Shown here: positions 52,428-53,465 of the stretch, piece after piece
Layout: each line of letters opens with the position of its first letter
Numbering within the stretch: position 1 is the stretch's first letter
Origin: Alphaproteobacteria bacterium
GTDB taxonomy: Bacteria > Pseudomonadota > Alphaproteobacteria > Caulobacterales > Hyphomonadaceae
Direction: 5' to 3'
Assembly: GCA_018222605.1 (NCBI GenBank)
Contig: JAAEZZ010000002.1
Span: 310,001 to 374,000 of the forward strand
DNA: 64,000 bases
Notes under the pieces: generated by a model
Told to the model about the DNA's origin: nothing
The model's database searches: none
Seen by the model: the letters and a program-made list of their open reading frames with translations, nothing else
Translations under genes and position numbers: made by a program

Positions 52428-53063
52428 CTACTTGTTTCCGGACCTATTGGGACGCGAGACGGGCAAGGCGTCAAGAAGGGGTTTGGCAACACGGCCCAGA
52501 TTTCGGCCAATGCCGGAGGCTTGGGCCAGTCGTCTGTCGATGAATATTCCAAGCTCTTCATCAGAAGGATGGTCCAGCCACTTCATGACTATGGATGGCA
52601 GGGCGGCGGCCAGAAGGCCGCGCTTGGAATATCGATTATAATCTGTCGCGGTGTCGCCTGCGGCGTCCCACACCATGTCGGCGACCTTCCAGGTCCGCTG
52701 CAGGGCGGGCGCGGCGCTCCAGGGCAGCATGCCCTTGATGGCAGCGCGCCGGACGGCTTCTCTATGGGGCTCCAGCGCCTCCAGCCAGGCCAGAATGCCT
52801 GCGCGCACTTTCCCGGGCACCTTGAGCTGGCTCATATCCTGCGCAGCGAGCGTGTCACGCGCTGTGTCGGCAGCCTGGTCAAAGAAGGCATCGATCAGGT
52901 CTGTTACGCCATTTGGCGCCGCCAGAGCCTGCTCTCCAGGCGACAAACCAGCCGAATCGGCCGCTTTGGTGGCGGCCGCCTCAGTCCAGCCGTCAAAAGG
53001 CACTTCCGGAAGCAGGGAATCCAACCAGCGGAACCGAAGGGTTTGGGACGGCGTTGTAGACAT
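52428..53063 (-). CDS. COQ9 family ubiquinone biosynthesis protein
   Basis: 211-residue protein related to mitochondrial COQ9, a lipid-binding partner of the COQ7 hydroxylase in ubiquinone synthesis. The N-terminus (residues 1-110) is a TetR-like helical bundle and the C-terminus carries the family segment TATDYNRYSKRGLLAAALPS (about 138-157) and WLDHPSDEELGIFIDRRL. The protein is confined to alphaproteobacteria and mitochondria, which helps place the organism. Divergent from rpsU, 127 bases apart. Confidence 0.9.
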   Translation of the reverse strand: MSTTPSQTLRFRWLDSLLPEVPFDGWTEAAATKAADSAGLSPGEQALAAPNGVTDLIDAFFDQAADTARDTLAAQDMSQLKVPGKVRAGILAWLEALEPHREAVRRAAIKGMLPWSAAPALQRTWKVADMVWDAAGDTATDYNRYSKRGLLAAALPSIVMKWLDHPSDEELGIFIDRRLAQASGIGRNLGRVAKPLLDALPVSRPNRSGNK

Positions 53064-53118: not shown

Positions 53119-53190
53119 CGCCGCTTCCCGGTCTGTCAGGCCGACACATAACCGCATCGGGGCGACGCCCCAAACGAATGGAGAAGAACA

Positions 53191-53400
53191 ATCGTACAGA
53201 TCGTCGTCCGCGATAACAATGTTGAGCAAGCCCTGCGCGCCCTGAAGAAAAAGATGCAGCGCGAAGGTTTGTTCCGGGAAATGAAGGCCCGTCAGTACTT
53301 CGAAAAACCTTCCGAGAAGAAAGCCCGCCAGCGCGCAGAAGCTGTTCGCCGCGCTCGCAAGCTTGCTCGTAAGCGCGCTCAGCGCGAAGGCCTGGTATAG
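53191..53400 (+). CDS. rpsU: Ribosomal protein S21 with an ATC start codon
   Basis: 69-residue small-subunit protein that helps 30S subunits pair with mRNA. The sequence is typical S21: (M)[38 protein letters not shown], then the basic helix [19 protein letters not shown]. In frame, between the stop TAA at 53,149-53,151 and the S21 core there is no ATG, GTG or TTG; the first is an internal ATG at codon 22. ATC at 53,191 falls exactly where S21 begins and lies seven bases after GGAG (53,180-53,183). I therefore annotate an AUC start. A standard start-codon caller would miss or truncate this gene. A terminator follows. Confidence 0.9.
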
Positions 53401-53426: not shown

Positions 53427-53465
53427 AAAAGCCCTGCCAGCCCGCGCTGGTGGGGCTTTTTGCTT
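53427..53465 (+). terminator. Intrinsic terminator of rpsU
   Basis: AAAAGCCC (53,427-53,434) pairs with GGGCTTTT (53,453-53,460) and CCAGC with GCTGG inside, loop CCGC, followed by TTTTTGCTTTTT. It lies 26 bases after the stop. Confidence 0.9.

Follow-up and report, generated by a model that had tools for sequence, protein, structure and literature searches.

A conserved near-cognate start codon of rpsU in Hyphomonadaceae and its possible link to initiation factor 3

The rpsU gene for ribosomal protein bS21 in the 64,000 nucleotide stretch of Hyphomonadaceae DNA analysed here ('the window') begins at an ATC codon, in a position where near-cognate codons are the rule throughout the family. Comparison of sequences establishes where this start lies, that it is conserved, that AUG is avoided and that rpsU and infC have a start codon class in common. 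We infer further that the output of S21 is weak, that it depends on initiation factor 3 (IF3) and that this serves a physiological purpose; the explanation as a whole, in which rpsU starts at AUC and an IF3-rejected class of codon keeps S21 synthesis weak and IF3-responsive, is fairly probable.

Apart from infC, bacterial genes that have been characterised as starting with an IF3-rejected codon are very few. The near-cognate start of rpsU is found family-wide and in most of the sampled genomes of the order, in which three other ribosomal protein genes use AUG, and it provides a testable link between the stringency of initiation and the composition of the 30S subunit.

The rpsU locus and the codon at residue 1

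The features of the locus, in window coordinates, are:

53191 to 53400, plus strand: rpsU, ribosomal protein bS21 (TIGR00030, PF01165), 69 residues if ATC initiates, stop codon TAG at 53398 to 53400
53191 to 53193, plus strand: ATC start codon, residue 1 of rpsU, near-cognate in 59 of 59 readable family genomes
53194 to 53196, plus strand: codon 2 of rpsU, GTA, the same in 40 of 40 congeners
53180 to 53183, plus strand: GGAG Shine-Dalgarno core, ending 7 bases ahead of ATC
53149 to 53151, plus strand: in-frame TAA, upstream closure of the rpsU frame
53178 to 53216, plus strand: out-of-frame ATG mini-ORF, 13 codons including the stop, overlapping the Shine-Dalgarno core
53159 to 53171, plus strand: leader hairpin, sequence GGGGCGACGCCCC
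53427 to 53460, plus strand: intrinsic terminator-like hairpin 3' of rpsU, 15 pairs with a T-rich tail
52428 to 53063, minus strand: COQ9-family gene, divergent from rpsU (TIGR02396, 99.4 bits; PF08511)

The rpsU product scores 69.1 bits against TIGR00030 (cut-off 28.95) and 72.6 bits against PF01165 (cut-off 27), with each model covered over its length, and is the sole S21 match in its own genome. Its frame ends in GLV before the TAG, and the protein is 99% identical to that of Hyphomonas sp. L-53-1-40, the nearest named relative by S21, which probably places the genome in Hyphomonas. The NCBIfam model that detects the divergent COQ9-family gene, TIGR02396, bears the name diverge_rpsU. The terminator-like hairpin downstream implies that rpsU is probably transcribed alone. 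A promoter scan at rpsU gave no match, no Rfam model scored near its gathering score there, and the out-of-frame mini-ORF is judged to be incidental.

Two GC-rich hairpins, at 53159-53171 and 53129-53143, are seen in the rpsU leader, their form being kept while their sequence changes within the genus; in the clade that carries ATC, the 53159-53171 stretch can instead pair with codons 4-8 so as to enclose the start. Leader folding was considered as a special feature of rpsU and set aside, since it is not distinctive against the S15 and S20 controls: the mean folding z-score for the region from -65 to -12 is -1.05 in the genus, -0.97 in the family and -1.50 in the order (S15 -1.35, S20 -0.67), and for the region from -40 to +27 it is -1.29, -0.20 and +0.27, respectively (S15 -0.98, S20 -0.34).

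A preliminary description of this DNA had noticed that the rpsU frame lacks ATG, GTG and TTG between the upstream stop and codon 22, and that ATC falls at residue 1, seven bases past GGAG. Both observations are borne out by the window, where the first such codon after the TAA is the ATG of codon 22 (53254). The comparison of rpsU starts across genomes that it had proposed gives strong support to its assignment of the start to ATC, since a near-cognate codon is found at residue 1 in all 59 readable genomes of the family and in 90 of 99 in the order. ATG, which it had imagined might prove to be the codon in all close relatives, occupies this place in 0 of 40 readable genomes of the genus and 0 of 59 of the family. 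A sequencing error at 53,191-53,193 is excluded, because ATC stands in the same place in other members of the genus (loci L002, L004 and L120, Hyphomonas sp. L-53-1-40) and ATC or ATA in 40 of 40 readable congeners. The ATC is thus real and conserved, but the range of start codons proved to be wider than had been stated, with ATA, ATT and CTG at the same place.

These counts come from a survey of 101 genomes (the window's own and 100 relatives), 100 of which gave an S21 match; the match in one (G037) is a fragment without the N-terminus and an incomplete genome (G011) gave no match, leaving 99 in which residue 1 could be read. The codon is ATC in 51, ATA in 20, CTG in 18, TTG in 6, ATG in 3 and ATT in 1, so that the combined ATC, ATA, ATT and CTG class accounts for the 90. 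The genus (n=40) has ATC in 23 genomes and ATA in 17; the other genera of the family (n=19) have ATC in 15, ATA in 3 and ATT in 1; and the other families of the order (n=40) have CTG in 18, ATC in 13, TTG in 6 and ATG in 3. Leucine-type codons at these 99 loci are always CTG or TTG, never CTC, CTT, CTA or TTA. One family member (G045) has two S21 genes, L058 with ATA and L078 with ATC, and the second copy, L078, was left out of the counts. The three ATG genomes (L089, L090, L279) all belong to one genus, g20, and their rpsU loci show no clear GGAG and encode a changed N-terminus, MVEIYVRQ.

Residue 1 is ATG or one base removed from it in 99 of 99 order loci, an exclusivity not to be expected of an ordinary internal codon, nor of a gene initiated at codon 2. 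A FastTree tree of rpsU from which residues 1 and 2 were left out implies at least nine changes of the codon at residue 1, compared with a mean of 43.8 for shuffled labels. Of the 64 third codon positions of rpsU, 61 differ between members of the family and 35 of these 61 show at least three bases, yet the start codon has no G at its third position, where A, C and T all occur. Codon 2 is also constrained in the genus: GTA makes up 3 of the 94 Val codons in four window ORFs, yet is codon 2 in all 40 congeners. GTG is found at codon 2 in none of the 99 order loci, an absence that would avoid a competing start.

The class at large shows two patterns. A sample taken across its families (104 genomes searched, 100 with S21) provided 101 loci from 98 genomes, all outside the order. 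In 69 of these loci the gene starts at codon 2 (GTG 44, ATG 16, TTG 9), and the preceding codon is random-looking, being ATG or one base off in 4 of 69. Where codon 2 offers no such start, residue 1 is ATG or one base off in 29 of 32 loci (Fisher p about 1e-17), a contrast which argues for residue 1 as the true start, with AUG avoided. These 29 are divided between non-canonical codons (16) and ATG, GTG or TTG (13). Two of the 16 non-canonical loci are doubtful, L264 (ATT ATT) and L250 (ACG CTC). A search of the phylum provided 30 loci. In the 15 that are of gamma/beta type, residue 1 is ATG in 14 and TTG in one, making this an established start position; five loci from outside the class (L331, L332, L335, L337, L339) have GTG at codon 2.

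Named loci, which overlap the survey of relatives and are thus not an independent count, show the same two patterns among the best 80 of 420: seven are near-cognate at residue 1, and the remaining 73, most of them Rhizobiales, use codon 2 (GTG 70, TTG 2, ATG 1). The seven comprise two Hyphomonas, one Hyphomonadaceae and one unassigned alphaproteobacterium with ATC or ATA, Aquisalinus with ATC, and a Parvularculaceae bacterium and an unassigned proteobacterium with CTG.

The start rules of the lineage are not simply relaxed: in the same lineages, searches of 31 genomes for each of the S20, S15 and S18 genes provided 30 loci per gene, and ATG is the start in all 30 in each case.

Start codon class, infC and the supply of S21

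The class of codon used by rpsU is also that of infC. Sixty-one genomes were searched and 47 order loci inspected, one of which (L402) is cut by a contig end. With starts assigned by eye from the conserved RRP/RKP-type beginning, some loci having an in-frame ATG a few codons later, infC begins with ATA, ATC or ATT in 45 of 46 readable loci and apparently with TTG in one (L406). The window's own genome has its infC (L305) near 189919 on the minus strand of contig G000:C9, where it reads AGGAGATTCGCC-ATA-GCT-CGC and starts at ATA; by inspection, ATA in that context was again the commonest start among 30 infC loci of the class sample. The two starts are not strictly coupled, because two g20 genomes (L400, L401) have ATC at infC although their rpsU has ATG (the third is unreadable).

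IF3 represses starts other than ATG, GTG and TTG, and the available portion of PMC5472188 gives infC autoregulation and sigR (GTC) as worked examples and names ATC as the infC start of Streptomyces. The AUC, AUA, AUU and CUG starts of rpsU are within the class that IF3 rejects; the TTG (six) and ATG (three) starts are outside it, so an IF3-discriminated rpsU start is not universal in the order. Judged from infC and from published IF3 biology, sensitivity to IF3 would be the best mechanism for the rpsU start, and this link, which the preliminary description had also suggested, gains indirect support because infC shares the start class while S20, S15 and S18 use ATG in 90 of 90 loci.

According to the preferred explanation, the AUC at 53191 would be decoded as fMet by the ordinary initiator tRNA, aided by GGAG. 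Retention of the codon within the rejected class (AUC, AUA, AUU, CUG) would hold S21 synthesis below the level set by AUG and cause it to vary with IF3 activity and the stringency of initiation, as is known for infC. The purpose may be to match the supply of S21 to the capacity for initiation; bS21 is described in the accessible text of PMC10931766 as a late joiner of the 30S subunit that exchanges easily and supports Shine-Dalgarno pairing. Conservation of the rpsU start, set against AUG in S20, S15 and S18, implies selection for weak or fidelity-dependent synthesis of S21 and suggests that its output may be tied to the strictness with which ribosomes choose start codons.

Alternatively, the near-cognate codon could act as a passive volume control on a strong promoter, with no physiologically useful response to IF3. 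This is possible, though it is the less probable account, and it is possible especially because many other Alphaproteobacteria use GTG for rpsU. A codon-2 GTG, which is not rejected by IF3, starts 44 of the 101 class loci and 70 of the best 80 of 420 named loci, so that what these genes share may be the weakness of the start, and not IF3; the TTG of six order genomes fits the same idea. However, GTG or TTG would suffice for a volume control, yet 90 of the 99 order genomes use the IF3-rejected class, which is the class of infC in these lineages. Moreover, some response to IF3 would be expected of any codon of this class, useful to the cell or not.

Other candidate starts and database entries

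The remaining alternatives place the start elsewhere. Initiation at codon 2, which is GTA here and GTT or GTC in other genomes, as a derivative of a GTG start and comparable to the GTC of Streptomyces sigR, is highly improbable. Most rpsU loci of the class sample do start at codon 2, most often with GTG, and sigR shows that GTC can initiate (PMC5472188, in the part available), but a start at codon 2 would free residue 1, which is instead confined to ATG and its one-base neighbours in all 99 order loci and is the established start position in the 15 gamma/beta-type loci. Spacing from the Shine-Dalgarno core does little to tell a residue-1 start from a codon-2 start, because codon-2 loci show a similar, if broader, spacing to residue 1; in the near-cognate order loci the spacing peaks at 6-7 bases.

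Met is removed before Val in mature proteins. A near-cognate start gives Met-Val-Gln, from which removal of Met would leave Val-Gln-Ile, equal in length to the Met-Gln-Val that arises from a codon-2 GTG, and the mature length may therefore be the same in both patterns.

A slightly longer S21 is hardly credible for this gene, whether translation began at the 53178 ATG and shifted frame by +1 or, in the case of relatives, used an in-frame ATG or TTG ahead of residue 1. An in-frame alternative start before rpsU is absent in the window and present in some relatives: 11 of 40 congeners have an in-frame ATG over the Shine-Dalgarno core, four codons upstream, and five other family genomes have a TTG two codons upstream of residue 1, so that in those genomes, unlike in the window, translation could start elsewhere. 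Across the 90 near-cognate order loci, an in-frame ATG, GTG or TTG before the upstream stop is absent in 45 and present in 43, and in 2 no stop was reached; 20 of the 40 congeners have no such start. The ATGGAG motif is found genus-wide, and 10 of the 19 family genomes outside the genus have it as well. However, the ATG lies 13 bases from residue 1 in 29 congeners and 12 in the other 11, it is missing from 9 of the 19 other family genomes while GGAG stays, and the ATG at 53178 in the window has no Shine-Dalgarno core ahead of it. A frameshifted start at 53178 was rejected on the varying distance and the missing ATG. Finally, it could be supposed that S21 has only 48 residues and is made from the codon-22 ATG, the first in-frame canonical start and the one listed by a mechanical ORF finder, the preceding codons being degenerate or the result of a sequencing error. 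This can be dismissed: residues 2-21 are conserved in relatives, the match to the S21 chains of solved ribosomes begins at about residue 4, TIGR00030 and PF01165 are matched from their first position, and other assemblies have the same start region.

The start at residue 1 may account for N-terminal extensions in some S21 entries of these bacteria. Among 16 database entries, which were picked and are not a sample, four begin at residue 1 with MVQI (P0001, P0002, P0028 and P0064, labelled Henriciella sp.), so the codon is already implicit in databases. In the other 12 the annotated start lies further upstream: P0051 and P0127 are longer by two residues and the rest by 11 to 49, reaching through the Shine-Dalgarno region. 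Extensions that run back through this region are seen in P0003, P0005, P0013, P0083, P0086, P0163 and P0179. Such extensions are probably a consequence of the unusual start and, judged from its conservation, the upstream starts would be wrong. The entry for Brevundimonas sp. Root608 (P0179) starts 21 residues upstream, and the DNA of locus L086, which would appear to come from the same genome, has CTG after AAAGGAGAGTTCAAC. Gene finders that are limited to ATG, GTG and TTG are thus given a warning.

No paper on a non-canonical start of rpsU or S21, and no description of the conservation or meaning of the rpsU start, was found in searches of an open-access library; the main text of PMC10783764, PMC10754441 and PMC10117765, as far as available, contains no mention of such a start.

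Comparison with known systems

The closest parallel is the autoregulation of infC (AUU, AUC or AUA), which shares with rpsU a near-cognate, IF3-rejected start after a Shine-Dalgarno core in the same lineages. The two differ in that infC encodes the discriminating factor itself and its loop is direct, whereas a loop for rpsU would pass through IF3 or the composition of the 30S subunit. The pcnB gene of E. coli, with its AUU start, resembles rpsU in having a start of this class outside infC, but does not encode a ribosomal protein. Streptomyces sigR is, like rpsU, a gene other than that for IF3 with a codon outside ATG, GTG and TTG; it has a low output, as is proposed for rpsU, and annotation had moved its start to an upstream codon, a mistake that some of the S21 entries here appear to share (PMC5472188, in the part available). 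In contrast to rpsU, sigR uses GTC, encodes a sigma factor and has had its start shown by experiment, that of rpsU being read from comparative sequence.

The bS21 autoregulation of Flavobacterium concerns the same gene and has the translational start region as its control point, as is proposed here. In the portion of PMC9976891 consulted, its logic rests on 30S subunits that lack bS21, since ribosomes without bS21 prefer rpsU by way of an extended Shine-Dalgarno sequence. The Flavobacterium signal is thus an extended Shine-Dalgarno sequence combined with an occluded anti-Shine-Dalgarno, whereas here an ordinary GGAG stands before an unusual start codon; by inspection, an exceptionally strong extended Shine-Dalgarno sequence is absent from the window and its congeners, which have the GGAG(A) core only. 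A loop of the Flavobacterium kind would therefore need discrimination at the start codon. A speculative and rather unlikely extension of the analogy is that the near-cognate start serves as a sensor of the 30S pool, with rpsU and infC forming a module for initiation fidelity and S21 occupancy. Subunits free of bS21, through late assembly or loss of bS21, would reject near-cognate codons less strictly, would translate rpsU preferentially and would then be completed by the S21 so made.
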